43,029 nt of DNA from a virus, in IMG/VR virus record IMGVR_UViG_3300035695_000007, positions 1 through 43,029 of that record; one strand, given 5' to 3'. How positions within the stretch are numbered: the first letter of the stretch is position 1; each line of letters begins with the position of its first letter. The notes under the pieces are model-generated. The model was not told the DNA's origin and made no database searches. It saw only the letters and a program-made list of their open reading frames with translations. Position numbers and translations under genes: made by a program. Shown piece by piece: positions 1,793 through 39,689 of this stretch.

Positions 1793-1978
1793 ATGCCAAA
1801 TTATGAACACCCGCCACGCGATGCCGCCTCCTTGCTGGCCGCTGACGTGTTATCGCTCGAGCGCCAGCTGGACGAAATCACGCGCGAGCGCGATATTCTG
1901 CGCGACATGCTGAGCCAATCACTCGGCTACAGTCACGCCTTGCTTCGTGAGTTGTATATGCAGCGATCGAACGCATGA
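1793..1978 (+). CDS. Small coiled-coil protein upstream of the helicase
   Basis: A 61-residue protein dominated by one amphipathic helix (about residues 15-45, with LERQLDEITRERDILRDML). I chose ATG 1793 over an in-frame ATG at 1766 because the latter gives a non-helical extension into the promoter region. Its TGA overlaps the ATG of the helicase gene (ATGA), so the two are probably coupled. It may pair with the ATPase as a loader or partner, but that is inferred only from position. Confidence 0.7.
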   Translation: MPNYEHPPRDAASLLAADVLSLERQLDEITRERDILRDMLSQSLGYSHALLRELYMQRSNA

Positions 1979-3294
1979 ACCCGCTCGATAGCGAGCTGCC
2001 GCCAGGTCCAGCCCCGTGGATCAAACCCACCGACTTCCTTCGCAGCAAGCCGCGCAAAGGCGATAGCGTGAAAGGTATCGTTCGGCACTGGCAAATCGTG
2101 CCCGGCGTCGGTTACGAACTCGCGGTCAGTGACCTCGGCGTGAAATTCACCGTTACGCGGGTCAGAAATCGCTACGACGAAGTGTTCGGGCTCCTCACCG
2201 TCCGCGCTGAGTTCAAAGGCGCACGAACCATAGGCGACGGCATCCTGTCAAGCGCGGATTTCAACCTCTCCAGCCTTCGAGCGCGACAAGAACGCGCCAA
2301 GCACCTCCACGAACGCGCACACGCCGACGAAATCGACTGGCTCGGACTCCTCGAGGAGCTGTGCTTGCGGATTCTCGAGCAAGAGGACCGCGGCAACCCT
2401 GAACAGGCGCTGTCTGATATTCCCGTCCCTGATTTTGAACATGGGGCGGAAATTATCGCGGGCGGATTACCGCTCTTGCGCCGGCATCCGGTTATTTGGT
2501 TCGGAGACGGCGCGGCCGGCAAGAGCTTGCTGGCGCTCTACGTAGCGATCGACCTCGCGCAGTCTGGACATCGCGTGCTCTACTGCGATTGGGAGTTCTC
2601 CGGCGAAGAACATTCCGCTCGGTTGCGGCGCTTCGCCGGCCAATCACCAGGGCTGAAAGACGAATTGCTCTACCGGCGCTGTGATAAGTCGTTTGTGCGC
2701 GAGGCGATCCAGATCCGGGACATCATCGCCAAACGCAAGATCACCTACATGATCTGCGACTCGATCGGCTTCGCCGCAGAAGGGGCTCCAGAGAGTGCTG
2801 AAGCCGCTACAGGCTACTTTCGCGCGCTCCGTGAGTGCGGACCCCTAGGATCGCTTCACTTGGCCCATATGAACCGCTCAGAGCAGGGCGACCAAAAGCC
2901 ATTTGGGTCGGTTTTCTGGCACGCTGGCGCTCGAGCGACGTGGTATCTCAAACGCACAGAAGCGGACCAAGCCGACGACATGACGGTCGGCTTTTATCAC
3001 CGTAAGTCCAACATTGGTAAGCTCAATCCACCGTTCGCCCGCAAAGTCGAGTTCCTCCAACACGAAACACGGATCGCCCCGACAGAAATCACCGAAGCGG
3101 CTGAACTGTCGGACAAACTCAAACTCTGGCAGAAGATCAAAGGCTGTCTCCAGCACGGCCCGATGACCGCTGCCGCCATTGCCGAGGAGCTCGAAGCTAA
3201 AACCGACACAGTTTACAAAACGCTCGACCGAATGGATGGGCTATTTGGCAAGTTCGAGGGTGCCGATAACATCCTCAGATTCAGGCTAAAATAG
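1975..3294 (+). CDS. RepA-like AAA ATPase / replicative helicase-type protein
   Basis: A 439-residue RecA-fold ATPase. Residues 25-85 look like a small beta domain. Walker A is GDGAAGKS (177-184), Walker B is YMICDS (258-263), and a winged-helix-like end lies at about 390-430. This layout fits the AAA_25/RepA group of hexameric helicases used by plasmids and phages to open or unwind origins. The gene is followed at once by the iteron-like inverted-repeat region at 3294-3434, which fits a replication module. A recombination ATPase is the main alternative. No primase motifs are seen. Confidence 0.85.
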   Translation: MNPLDSELPPGPAPWIKPTDFLRSKPRKGDSVKGIVRHWQIVPGVGYELAVSDLGVKFTVTRVRNRYDEVFGLLTVRAEFKGARTIGDGILSSADFNLSSLRARQERAKHLHERAHADEIDWLGLLEELCLRILEQEDRGNPEQALSDIPVPDFEHGAEIIAGGLPLLRRHPVIWFGDGAAGKSLLALYVAIDLAQSGHRVLYCDWEFSGEEHSARLRRFAGQSPGLKDELLYRRCDKSFVREAIQIRDIIAKRKITYMICDSIGFAAEGAPESAEAATGYFRALRECGPLGSLHLAHMNRSEQGDQKPFGSVFWHAGARATWYLKRTEADQADDMTVGFYHRKSNIGKLNPPFARKVEFLQHETRIAPTEITEAAELSDKLKLWQKIKGCLQHGPMTAAAIAEELEAKTDTVYKTLDRMDGLFGKFEGADNILRFRLK

Positions 3295-3434
3295 TGTATA
3301 GATTTAATATGGACAACTTGTCCTGGACATGTGGACAGACTGTCAAATGGACAACCCTAGTAAATACTACGTATTTACTAAGGGGGGTTTGTCCATACGA
3401 TTTGTCCATTAAGAACCGTCGTAAAACTATACAC
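3294..3434. other. Candidate replication origin: iterons and nested inverted repeats
   Basis: The gene-free stretch after the helicase is organised symmetrically. The outer arms GTGTATAG (3294-3301) and CTATACAC (3427-3434) are perfect complements. Inside are TGGACA copies on the plus strand at 3310, 3324, 3332 and 3348 and inverted copies (TGTCCA) at 3390 and 3403, plus the palindrome GGACAACTTGTCC (3311-3323) and GACAGACTGTC (3334-3344). At the centre is a perfect 10-bp hairpin. The flanks are AT-rich. Iterons beside a RepA-like gene are the classic plasmid/phage origin layout. A multi-site operator is the main alternative. Confidence 0.55.
3358..3380. repeat. Central perfect hairpin of the candidate origin
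   Basis: TAGTAAATAC (3358-3367) and GTATTTACTA (3371-3380) are perfect 10-bp complements around TAC. The stem can extend outwards, with bulges, through CCC/GGGGGG to ATGGACAA (3347-3354) and TTGTCCAT (3389-3396), giving a cruciform-capable element of about 50 nt. There is no T tract after it, so it does not look like an intrinsic terminator. Confidence 0.7.
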
Positions 3435-3442
3435 AAGGTATT

Positions 3443-3646
3443 ATGACAATACCGATTGAAATCCGCGAAGCCGTCGCGCTCGAGCGCCGGCGCTGCATCG
3501 GCGTCGTCCTCGCAGAGTTTGGGATCTATCGGCTAGCAGGCGAGGAACGCATTGCAGCGGCCCTAGACGCGCTTGCAACGAAGTTGGAATACCCGGATGG
3601 CAGGCAGGTCGAGATAATCGCTCAGAATGGCTCTAATAGCCTCTAG
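3443..3646 (+). CDS. Small hypothetical helical protein
   Basis: A 67-residue, mostly helical protein with no family I recognise. ATG 3443 follows AAGG by six bases. A TATACA hexamer (3428-3433), part of the outer arm of the inverted repeat, could serve as its -10. Its TAG (3644-3646) overlaps the stop of the minus-strand gene that ends at 3643, so the two transcription units converge with no spacer. Confidence 0.6.
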   Translation: MTIPIEIREAVALERRRCIGVVLAEFGIYRLAGEERIAAALDALATKLEYPDGRQVEIIAQNGSNSL

Positions 3647-5440: not shown

Positions 5441-5756
5441 TGTGTTTCACCACCGTAATCGGTGAGTCGTCCAGCGCCTTGACTGCGGCATCGTGATCCG
5501 CCTGTCGTTGCGCAACGATGGCCGCGCAGACGCGGTGCAGATCGTGATCGAGCGCGGTTGGGTTCTGCCGAGGACCACCATCCACCCGCTGCGTGCAGAA
5601 GTTCAGACGGTCGAGCCGTCCGTCCTCCCGGTATTCGGGGACGATGGCGATGAGCACTTCGCGCGGCTCGCGCGGCTGATTGAACATGGCGATCTGCTGC
5701 TGCGCCATCACCAACCCATCGTCTTCGTAGCAGTTGTCGATGCTCGTAACTTTCAT
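5433..5756 (-). CDS. Hypothetical protein
   Basis: A 107-residue protein starting at ATG 5756 with a good AAGGAG about eight bases upstream. The start is separated from the previous gene by a partial copy of the EAVAPPP cassette. The middle (VLIAIVPEYREDGRLDRLNF) is strand-like, and the C-terminal half (about 65-100) is helical. No known family recognised. Confidence 0.6.
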   Translation of the reverse strand: MKVTSIDNCYEDDGLVMAQQQIAMFNQPREPREVLIAIVPEYREDGRLDRLNFCTQRVDGGPRQNPTALDHDLHRVCAAIVAQRQADHDAAVKALDDSPITVVKHNG

Positions 5757-5767
5757 TTGCTCTCCTT

Positions 5768-5785
5768 GTGCTCCCGTGGGGGCGC
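5768..5785. repeat. Partial junction cassette, copy C
   Basis: A degenerate copy: GTGCTCCCGTGGGGGCG matches the outer half of the 31-bp cassette. It lies in the 33-bp gap between the stop at 5790 and ATG 5756, so here it is not translated but still provides AGGAG-type sequence. Confidence 0.55.
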
Positions 5786-5789
5786 GAAA

Positions 5790-5984
5790 TTAGTCTGGAA
5801 CATAGTGACCTACGTCGAACTGCCGCGTTTTCAGCGCCTCAACTTCGTTGCACATCGCCGTCCAATCCGCGATCTTTATGATCACGACGCCTTCGGTCGT
5901 CGCACCGAACGTGCCGACGACAGGAAACCCGTTCTTCTTGAACGGCATGTGCAAAACCCAAATCCGCGTAGGTTTATCGCTCAC
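5790..5984 (-). CDS. Hypothetical small protein
   Basis: A 64-residue protein with a GTG start at 5984 and AGGGAG eight bases upstream, overlapping the preceding gene by 11 bp. It has a run of predicted strands (RIWVLHMPF, GFPVVGTFG, GVVIIKIADW) and a short helix, giving a compact alpha/beta fold. No family recognised. Confidence 0.55.
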   Translation of the reverse strand: MSDKPTRIWVLHMPFKKNGFPVVGTFGATTEGVVIIKIADWTAMCNEVEALKTRQFDVGHYVPD

Positions 5985-6159: not shown

Positions 6160-6842
6160 TTGCTGTGCTCCTGTGGGGGCGGGGCGACCGCCTCCCGTAG
6201 CCGCTCGATATACGCCAGCATGTTGCCGACGCGTGAGCCTTCCACCAACGGCGGACGACAGCCGCCGAGCGCCTGTTCGATCTGGATAATCTGCGCTTCG
6301 TGCTCGTTGTTCGCGCTTGCCAGCGTGCGGATCACCTTCGCGGGCGTGCAGTCATCATCGAAGTGACCAAAGCCTGCCTCGGCTGCTGCATTTTCGGCAT
6401 CGGCCCAGAGTGGGGGCGGAACCATCGGGCTCGGAGTGGCAATGATCGACTTAAGTTCCTGAATCCGCGCCTCAACGGTTGGTCTCTGCGGCACCGACTC
6501 GAACACCGCCAGATCCCGACGCGCCAGCACGACAACGGACGGTTCTGTGACGTTCATCTCAGATTCTCCTTCTTGGGGTGGGGGCGGGGCGACCGCCTCA
6601 CGATAGGCTGTAGTCTGTTGCGAATCCGGTAAGCCATAGGCTAGAACCTGTCGCGCGAACGTCCGCAGGTTGAACTCCACGGTGTCCTGCGTCGTCCAGA
6701 GCCGATCGTCAGCGGCCCAAGTCTTCACGGCATCCTCCTGCTTAGCATTGAGCGCAATTGGACCCAGTGGGGGCGGGGCGACAGACGCCTCCCTATCCAC
6801 AACTTTTTCCGTAGACGACGACGATTTGGCGCGCGTGGTCAT
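6156..6842 (-). CDS. Composite protein built across EAVAPPP repeats
   Basis: A 228-residue frame that looks like two or three small genes joined in frame. EASVAPPP (18-25), REAVAPPPPQEGESE (81-95) and REAVAPPPQEH (at the end) come from cassette copies. A shorter PPPLWA (about 140-146) matches another. Met 96 (6557) has AAGGAG seven to eight bases upstream, exactly as if it began a separate gene of 133 residues. Both full-length and internal products are possible. ATG 6842 overlaps the methyltransferase stop (ATGA). No recognised domain. Confidence 0.6.
   Translation of the reverse strand: MTTRAKSSSSTEKVVDREASVAPPPLGPIALNAKQEDAVKTWAADDRLWTTQDTVEFNLRTFARQVLAYGLPDSQQTTAYREAVAPPPPQEGESEMNVTEPSVVVLARRDLAVFESVPQRPTVEARIQELKSIIATPSPMVPPPLWADAENAAAEAGFGHFDDDCTPAKVIRTLASANNEHEAQIIQIEQALGGCRPPLVEGSRVGNMLAYIERLREAVAPPPQEHSK
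6164..6194. repeat. EAVAPPPQEH junction cassette, copy D (31 bp)
   Basis: This copy is identical over 31 bp to 5194-5224. It encodes the last residues of the composite protein and the ribosome site used by GTG 6159. Confidence 0.85.
6410..6420. repeat. Short cassette remnant, copy E
   Basis: GTGGGGGCGGA, the shortest match to the cassette core, lies inside the composite frame and encodes PPPL. It may be a decayed copy or chance in GC-rich DNA. Confidence 0.3.
6557..6557 (-). promoter_or_regulatory. Internal start with strong ribosome site
   Basis: ATG at 6557-6555 (minus) is preceded by AAGAAGGAG with about eight bases between. It would start a 133-residue C-terminal product (MNVTEPSVVV...) from within the composite frame. 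Confidence 0.5.
6578..6599. repeat. EAVAPPPP junction cassette, copy F
   Basis: The cassette core is joined on its outer side to TTCTCCTTCTTGG, a ribosome-site segment also seen in the 28-bp repeat at 8442-8469. On the minus strand it gives EAVAPPPPQEG and the AAGGAG in front of the internal ATG 6557. Confidence 0.8.
6767..6790. repeat. EASVAPPP junction cassette, copy G
   Basis: This is a diverged copy with a 3-bp insertion in its inner part. It encodes EASVAPPP near the N-terminus of the composite protein. Confidence 0.65.
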
Positions 6843-7537
6843 TGGTTGCTTTCTCCTAAGCCTGGATCTACCGCGTCACCGGACGCGGGTTCTACGAACA
6901 TCGCTGAGAGTGCGCCTTGCGACAATCGAAGCGCAGCAATCTCACAGTAACGCTCGTTTATTTCCACGCCGATCGCGCGTCGTCCGGCCTGCTTCGCGGC
7001 AACGAGCGTGGTGCCGCTTCCGGCGAACGGGTCGAGCACACAGCCGCCAGGTAATGACCACCAGCGCACGAGGAACGCGACGTGTGACATCTTGCGCGGG
7101 CACGGATGATCAGCCTGCTTGCCGCCTCCGTCGCTGTCCATGATGCGGCCGGGAATGACGTGCGCGCCTTTCACGCTCGGCGGCGGCGTGCCGAACAGAT
7201 ACGCCGTGTCGCCGGTCATTAGTAGCCGTCCCTTATAGCCCATCCGTGCGATCTCGAGATGGCACACGCGAAAGAACGGCCAACGCGCCGAGACCGCCAT
7301 CAGCATTCGCGGGTCGCTATCGCAGCCGAAGTGAATCGCCACGCGCTCGGCTTCAAGAGCACGATAGAGAACATCACCGAGCAGCTTGAACGCATCGATG
7401 CCCGCGAACTCGGAGACCGAGTTATTCGGCCAGATCGGATCTGTGATGATGCTGTCGAAGTCCGTCAACTGCGGAACGACCACGCGGGCATCGCCGTGGT
7501 AGATCGTCACGCCGTCCGCTTGGTAGTATGGCTTCAC
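6839..7537 (-). CDS. DNA methyltransferase with DPIW motif
   Basis: A 232-residue methyltransferase with motif IV as TDPIWPN (DPIW at 33-36) in place of the usual DPPY/W, a HPCPRK segment (144-149) and the cofactor loop DPFAGSGTT (169-177). It should methylate adenine or cytosine amino groups in DNA. The change of the second Pro-position residue to Ile is unusual but I recall related phage enzymes with DPVWPN, so it is probably active. GTG 7537 has GGAG four bases upstream and overlaps the stop of a 20-codon mini-frame. It shares the MKPYY...TIYHGD start with the first methyltransferase. Confidence 0.88.
   Translation of the reverse strand: MKPYYQADGVTIYHGDARVVVPQLTDFDSIITDPIWPNNSVSEFAGIDAFKLLGDVLYRALEAERVAIHFGCDSDPRMLMAVSARWPFFRVCHLEIARMGYKGRLLMTGDTAYLFGTPPPSVKGAHVIPGRIMDSDGGGKQADHPCPRKMSHVAFLVRWWSLPGGCVLDPFAGSGTTLVAAKQAGRRAIGVEINERYCEIAALRLSQGALSAMFVEPASGDAVDPGLGESNQ
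6862..6877. repeat. Dispersed 16-bp repeat CTGGATCTACCGCGTC, copy 1
   Basis: Exact copies are at 6862-6877 and 9490-9505 in this orientation, an inverted copy is at 7554-7569, and a 13-bp partial inverted copy is at 9789-9801. Read on the minus strand this copy encodes DAVDP near the end of the second methyltransferase. Confidence 0.7.
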
Positions 7538-39130: not shown

Positions 39131-39397
39131 CTACCGTTCAGCGCGGCTGATCCGCCGAGCCATCGCGGAGTTACAGATGCGAAGGCGCTCAGATCGCGCT
39201 TGTTCGCTGAATTGCGCGCGATCTTTATTGAGCCACCAACTGTCGTGAGGTTCGCCGTGATGCCACGGTTGTAGGAGATAGGTCTGATCGTTCGTGATGT
39301 CGTCAAATCTCGGTGATTGTGACTGAATAGAGGGCTTCGATGATCCGTTTTTTGAGCCGATACACTGGCGTGGCTGTGGCCTTGCTCTTGACATCTT
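39131..39397 (-). CDS. Hypothetical protein overlapping the nuclease
   Basis: An 88-residue frame ending at 39131. The C-terminal 60 residues (DDITNDQTYLLQPWHHGEPH, then a helix with FSEQARSERLRIC) look like real protein. The start is unclear: ATG 39397 with AGAGG ten bases upstream would overlap the DUF1064 gene by 95 bp, while a start near 39300 would need a rare codon. I give ATG 39397. Confidence 0.45.
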   Translation of the reverse strand, partial: KMSRARPQPRQCIGSKNGSSKPSIQSQSPRFDDITNDQTYLLQPWHHGEPHDSWWLNKDRAQFSEQARSERLRICNSAMARRISRAER

Positions 39398-39689
39398 CGA
39401 TGACCTCTTTTCCTGCCGCGTCCAGATAGACAAAATCCGCGAGATACGTGCCGACGTGGATGTCATTCACGAACATCTTGAAGGGAACCTGGAGGCGCAA
39501 GTAGCTGATTTGCTTCGCGGCTTGGAGCATGGCTAATTCGAGGTAACGTTTGGCCTCTTTCGCACTATCGAACCGCTTGCCGTGGATGTCTGTCTTCTGA
39601 GCGTTGTATTTGGAACGCTTCACGCTCGCGGCCATTTCATCTCGTGTGACCTTCTTCGTCCACGCCTCTCGATCCTCTTTAGCGCCCAT
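39303..39689 (-). CDS. DUF1064-type nuclease
   Basis: A 128-residue protein with KYNAQKTDIHGKRFDSAKEAKRY, a core ending YLADFVYLDA, and VIEDVKSKATATPVYRLKKRI, then YSVTITEI. These match DUF1064 phage proteins, related to Holliday-junction resolvases of the PD-(D/E)xK fold (E in KEAKRYLEL, D in ADFVY, E and K in EDVK). Possible role: resolving recombination or replication intermediates. Start overlaps the upstream TAA. Confidence 0.85.
   Translation of the reverse strand: MGAKEDREAWTKKVTRDEMAASVKRSKYNAQKTDIHGKRFDSAKEAKRYLELAMLQAAKQISYLRLQVPFKMFVNDIHVGTYLADFVYLDAAGKEVIEDVKSKATATPVYRLKKRIIEALYSVTITEI

Follow-up and report, generated by a model that had tools for sequence, protein, structure and literature searches.

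A mirror-symmetric iteron block with a central hairpin beside a RepA-like ATPase gene is a putative phage replication origin

We propose that a gene-free block of 141 bp (positions 3294–3434), which starts on the stop codon of a gene for a RepA-like ATPase in a virus record of 43,029 bases (the window), is very probably the DNA replication origin of the phage, recognized by the protein encoded immediately upstream. Origin activity is inferred here from sequence comparison, without binding or replication data: the layout of the block is shared by many phages and its repeated words change with the DNA-binding tail of the helicase, and the block is therefore very probably the place where replication starts. 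An earlier note on this DNA had suggested a candidate origin beside a RepA-like helicase, and the comparative evidence supports that suggestion, in that relatives keep the layout but vary the word, which in a sister family tracks the winged-helix tail. To our knowledge, the replication origins of most phages are unknown. The window contains genes for portal, scaffold, major head and head-closure proteins and apparently comes from a tailed phage; compared with named phages, it has neither near-identical DNA nor protein-level relatives.

At the center of the block lies a hairpin (3358–3380; TAGTAAATAC-TAC-GTATTTACTA) with a perfect 10-bp stem and a TAC loop, the longest perfect short-loop hairpin in all 43,029 bases. 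Four copies of the iteron TGGACA are found on the plus strand to its left (3310–3315, 3324–3329, 3332–3337 and 3348–3353, the last adjoining the hairpin), and two inverted copies on the minus strand to its right (3390–3395 and 3403–3408), in the inward arrangement on opposite strands that had been described before. The two short palindromes that had been reported together with the perfect central hairpin were also located: GGACAACTTGTCC (3311–3323), overlapping the first iteron, and GACAGACTGTC (3334–3344), overlapping the third. Repeat search and folding further delineate an extended inverted repeat, ATGGACAACCC ... GGTTTGTCCAT (3347–3396), that encloses the hairpin. The outer arms GTGTATAG (3294–3301, plus strand) and CTATACAC (3427–3434, plus strand) are present as described and can be extended to 13 nt with a 92% match; they look specific to the window, because the relatives have no counterpart beyond iteron-derived repeats. 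The accompanying claim of about 140 bp without a gene holds except that the first arm begins within the stop codon, at its third base.

When the flanks were dinucleotide-shuffled 5,000 times, six symmetric TGGACA copies never arose (p = 0.0002), and no 141-bp stretch elsewhere in the window has a symmetry score above 4, which leaves the block as the sole such symmetric site. Treated as single-stranded DNA, the block folds with z = −5.9; its A+T content is approximately 60%, versus 42% for the whole record, and an Rfam search with it returned no match. The 67-residue open reading frame that follows the block (3443–3646, plus strand) matches no family, and text resembling its ERRRCxG... sequence was seen by eye at the same place in three related loci (L001, L006 and L259).

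The upstream gene (1975–3294, plus strand) encodes a protein of 439 residues, which comprises an N-terminal part of unknown fold, a RecA-fold AAA_25 core and a C-terminal winged helix. AAA_25 (PF13481) is the only family matched (E = 5e-6, just below the gathering score), with a further weak match to the DnaB-like helicase phrog_19, and in a structure search the modeled core resembles KaiC, DnaB and RadA, proteins of the RecA fold. The profile and structural matches bear out the earlier assignment of a RepA-like ATPase; no primase domain was recognized in the protein. Although the overall confidence of the AF2 model is modest (pLDDT 66), the last 65 residues (375–439; 3097–3291, plus strand) form a fairly confident winged helix (pLDDT mostly 80–91), which is the inferred reader of the iterons.

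We compared the window with relatives of its ATPase drawn from IMG/VR and Acidobacteria genomes. Inward-facing short repeats surround a hairpin just past the stop codon in L001–L007, L259, L263, L264 and L268–L271, with one extra open reading frame displacing the block from the gene in L263. The mirrored layout, which the earlier note had called unusual, is instead the rule for this class. The word itself changes: TGGACA recurs in L271, and the other loci carry CGGACA (L006, L259, L263 and L270), CGGAC (L269), GGGACA (L003), GTGACA (L004, L005, L007 and L268), TATAAC (L001), TGCAAC (L002) or CTTAAC (L264). The hairpin is frequently CCCCC-TTTA-GGGGG; the window, L004 and L005 instead have a longer stem, and the window hairpin, which lacks the TTTA loop, occupies the position of the CC-TTTA-GG hairpin of the relatives. 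The earlier note had held that relatives keeping the helicase without the repeats would refute an origin. Helicase and repeats are in fact retained together in all relatives at least 37% identical and in L264 at 30%, nearly all with the hairpin; only in the most distant relatives, L265, L267 and L272, are the repeats absent. Four other phages with AAA_25 proteins, GB2A, Vibrio 1.210.O, Mae-JY30 and ctyzp037, show no visible hairpin block at the 3′ end of the gene, and the element is therefore not universal.

For a view that did not start from the helicase, IMG/VR was scanned for CCCCCTTTAGGGGG alone, with CCCCCATTTGGGGG as a matched control hairpin; the counts for both hairpins cover only sites among the matches listed and are not full totals. 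Within these matches, inverted iterons (p ≤ 0.01) were found at 36 of 114 distinct CCCCCTTTAGGGGG sites and at 0 of 109 control sites. Large open reading frames were chosen by a 3′ end near significant hairpins, and L124 and the phage CGphi29 were added by hand. Among the matches listed, AAA_25 was present in all 22 large frames beside significant sites (the two hand-added ones included), in 12 of 17 beside the remaining TTTA sites, and in none of 14 beside control hairpins. The AAA_25 core is joined to various primase modules, namely Toprim_3 (8), Prim-Pol (5), PriCT_2 (2) and a DnaG zinc ribbon (2). It is therefore the helicase, and no single primase, that the element accompanies. A primase that reads the TTTA loop is weakened as a general explanation, as the hairpin occurs with several primase modules that are unrelated to one another and also where none was recognized. 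Similar loci with a TTTA hairpin and CTTACC/ACTTAC repeats lie beside a 176-residue gene that is not AAA_25 (L009, L040, L065, L104, L115 and L120); block and rep gene may be separated in this group. In Pseudomonas phage vB_PstS-pAN (L134), many TGTTGGGT repeats follow a PriCT-2 primase-helicase gene at 5574–5900, with no obvious TTTA hairpin.

Base pairing of the hairpin is under selection in relatives. Across 23 distinct hairpins, 43 stem cells had changed on both sides compared with 13.8 after shuffling, and 84% of cells were paired compared with 60%, slid versions being worse; the innermost C-G pair and most of the TTTA are invariant. Since these hairpins were preselected (a loop of TTTA or TATA closed by five or more perfect pairs), the paired percentage and the loop are partly given by construction, the variety of compensated stems less so. 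Selection for pairing is thus documented in relatives, whereas the role of the hairpin and its extrusion are inferred. C-TTTA-G would also fit a compact DNA hairpin loop of the kind known from DNA hairpin studies. We rejected the idea that the loop strand gives a signal of constant orientation towards the gene: the coding strand reads TTTA at 14 loci and TAAA at 7. Iterons are more common on the gene side of the hairpin than on the opposite side (75 versus 43).

The relation between iteron and protein was analyzed in the Toprim_3+AAA_25 sister family, where the iterons of 80 relatives were identified in the DNA that follows the gene, giving 65 usable sequences. Iteron sharing correlates with winged-helix identity (partial r = 0.66, Mantel p = 5e-4), whereas the remainder of the protein shows no such relation (partial r = −0.18). 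The 14 columns most predictive of the iteron all fall within the C-terminal domain. At least 19 iteron changes are needed on a tree from which that domain was left out. Two loci illustrate such a change: L320 and L291 are 99% identical before the C-terminal domain and 49% inside it, and have the iterons AGGGGGC and GGTAAC, respectively. At a single position, Gln occurs in 10 of 10 sequences with GGTAAC, Val in 17 of 18 with GGAAC, Lys in 7 of 7 with CGGACC/CGTACC, and Asn in 14 of 14 with GGGTCA. The C-terminal domains of L304 (Val, GGAAC) and L301 (Gln, GGTAAC) differ by this residue and a few turn residues, and the Gln/Val exchange accompanies GGAAC/GGTAAC in five of five independent supported pairs (sign test p = 0.0625, too few for significance alone). 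Sequences inside one family are not independent, and 1 of the 65 rows, CGphi29 (L128), was automatically classed as AGGGGGC in the co-variation and tree analyses when its true iteron is GGGGACA.

In a model of the sister-family domain (pLDDT 90), whose weak structural matches are mostly winged-helix regulators, the Gln/Val residue lies in a short helix, residues 58–64, which we take to be the recognition helix. The window's own family, with 15 sequences, shows only weak co-variation (partial r = 0.27, p = 0.02); residue 411 is Asp, Thr or Glu with xGGAC and Asn with GTGACA, and a predicted helix of the window protein, 410–419, holds residues that track the iteron. Reading of the iterons by the winged helix of the ATPase is thus inferred from co-evolution and not from binding data.

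DnaA boxes (TTATCCACA) are concentrated at the blocks of the Toprim family, with 95 in 22 kb of blocks compared with 47 in 412 kb elsewhere, and at least two are present at 32 of 64 loci. None was found at the window's block or in the window's family, except for one single-mismatch site in L271. A different motif, GGGGCAAAA..GCG-like, is seen repeatedly in the stretch that leads from the left iterons to the hairpin, 0–200 bp past the rep stop, in L278, L284, L291 and their kin.

In the window, GC skew has its minimum at 20.7 kb and its maximum at 39.6 kb, with no turn at the block, a result that the earlier note had foreseen as refuting an origin here. We judge it uninformative and not decisive, because the skew also misses the block in most other carrier phages: it was not clearly aligned with the block in any except CGphi29, where it turns within approximately 2 kb and where the gene direction also changes. 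Cultured phages that carry the block are Rhizobium phages 16-3, RHph_X2_25 and RHph_N65, Roseobacter phages CRP-811 and CRP-823, and Salicola phage CGphi29, so the origin idea is testable. Iterons and a hairpin also follow the gene of a related protein in a circular, phage-like Caenibius plasmid of 38 kb with a terminase gene, and iterons follow such a gene in a likewise circular Klebsiella plasmid with a capsid gene.

Based on these observations, we suggest how the putative origin might operate. The C-terminal winged helix would bind the TGGACA iterons, and the inward-facing copies on both sides could assemble oppositely oriented ATPase rings about the center, an inference from the symmetry and from the two-hexamer precedent of SaPI. 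Binding and ATP hydrolysis would open the central segment, allowing the inverted repeat to fold into hairpins on both single strands, and two helicase rings might then travel outward. Where a primase domain is fused to the ATPase, it would provide the priming; for the window's protein, a host or separate primase would do so. Because a change of the iteron word goes with a change of the winged helix, a phage would initiate replication of its own DNA only. We further consider, with the balance even between yes and no, that these blocks represent a large, undescribed class of phage origins with (i) a C-TTTA-G hairpin working at the mirror center and (ii) a swappable winged-helix/iteron cassette by which closely related phages switch origin identity. 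The hairpin, for example as a cruciform or as paired single-strand hairpins, may position the two RecA-fold helicase rings head to head. Neither the hairpin sequence nor a description of the class was found in the open-access literature on iterons, phage origins and hairpins, subscription papers excluded.

Parts of this arrangement have counterparts in known systems. The helicase of P4 alpha belongs to SF3, a class different from AAA_25, and RSF1010 RepA is a RecA-fold hexamer. The closest functional parallel is SaPI Rep, whose C-terminal domain recognizes iterons directly downstream of its own gene, a mode shared by SCCmec replication proteins; both SaPI and SCCmec Cch2 helicases are self-loading, apparently as two hexamers (PMC7581432). 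As in SaPI Rep/ori and SCCmec Cch2/ori, the helicase gene lies immediately upstream, the block starting at its stop codon in the window as in relatives, and as in SaPI there are multiple short iterons. The counterpart of C-terminal iteron recognition is here a co-variation that is strong in the sister family and modest in the window's own. By this analogy, it is well supported that the block would work like a SaPI-type origin. It falls outside the SaPI-type family because the helicase class differs: the SaPI and SCCmec proteins are of the DUF927 or Primase_Cterm/D5 kinds, whereas the window protein matches AAA_25 only and has a RecA fold. Nor is a conserved central TTTA hairpin described for those origins in the portions consulted (PMC7581432).

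P4 alpha, a primase-helicase of a satellite phage, binds origin repeats by a C-terminal winged helix and shares similarity in the primase region with the Toprim_3 relatives; unlike the block here, its origin has no central hairpin reported in the summary available (PMC4234260). In pRN1 and phage BIP-1, a stem-loop closely follows the gene for a replication protein that carries a winged helix at its C terminus, and in pRN1 stem integrity is needed for replication, the structure being more conserved than the sequence (PMC4234260). These systems differ in having an SF3 helicase with an archaeo-eukaryotic primase and a stem-loop of ~100 nt in which the authors find no iteron structure; the window protein has AAA_25 only, although some relatives do have Prim-Pol. 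RSF1010 oriV combines RepA helicase, iterons and hairpins (ssiA/ssiB) at one origin (PMC4234260, PMC4434180). The window ATPase resembles RSF1010 RepA in its AAA_25 profile and RecA-fold structure matches, and a hexamer is inferred only from this likeness. In RSF1010, separate RepC reads the iterons and primase RepB′ the hairpins, whereas in the present case the inferred reader is a domain of the helicase; no separate RepC, or RepB′ with ssi hairpins, was recognized among the scanned window proteins, which do not cover every open reading frame.

Other functions for such a block have to be weighed. Many repressors contain winged helices, operators typically consist of inverted repeats, and a small plus-strand open reading frame begins 9 bp beyond the block, so the winged helix on the iterons could regulate its own or downstream transcription while replication starts elsewhere. 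We consider such an operator improbable: the block lies downstream of the ATPase gene and not at the promoter of that gene, the DNA-binding domain belongs to a protein with a helicase core, and many iterons plus a hairpin exceed what an operator needs. Moreover, DnaA boxes flank the blocks of many relatives, and in phage 16-3 the annotated repressor operators are approximately 20 kb away. Still less probable is that the hairpin serves mainly as a bidirectional transcription terminator between genes, with the repeats incidental. Its position after a stop codon and the GC-rich stems common in relatives would suit a terminator; there is, however, no T tract, a terminator scan did not list the hairpin, the matched control hairpin lacks iterons, and some relatives have AT-rich stems yet keep the loop-closing C-TTTA-G.

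Rolling-circle origins typically have their nick site in a hairpin, and replication could begin at the iterons, in rolling-circle mode, by a nick in the hairpin loop. Such a mode has been argued for pRN1 by one group, as discussed in PMC4234260. It requires a nicking endonuclease, however, and the proteins encoded next to the block yielded no match to a nickase domain; the protein is helicase-like, and both stem and loop vary, leaving this mode with only a very slight chance. A protelomerase site or attP was also rejected as a reading of the nested palindrome, as no such protein was among those scanned and the repeats of the sister family vary with the helicase tail.

If the block is the replication origin, as we favor, the signature of an AAA_25 gene, inward-facing iterons and a C-TTTA-G hairpin points to candidate origins in many uncultured phages. 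The residues of one helix set against a word of 5–7 bases would constitute a natural recognition code that is directly testable. The sister family also supplies recent examples of iteron switching, plausibly, by inference, a way to keep related phages or satellites from interfering with the phage or hijacking it.

Some further features were recorded in these genomes. The window has two genes for N6/N4 DNA methyltransferases, both phrog_67 (120–800 and 6839–7537, minus strand), and one for a DUF1064 protein (39303–39689, minus strand); the phage-like plasmid of Caenibius, too, has a DUF1064 gene, located upstream of its AAA ATPase gene. In the isolated Salicola phage CGphi29 (L128), an abiF RNA (Rfam RF03085) scores above the gathering threshold at 6468–6504.
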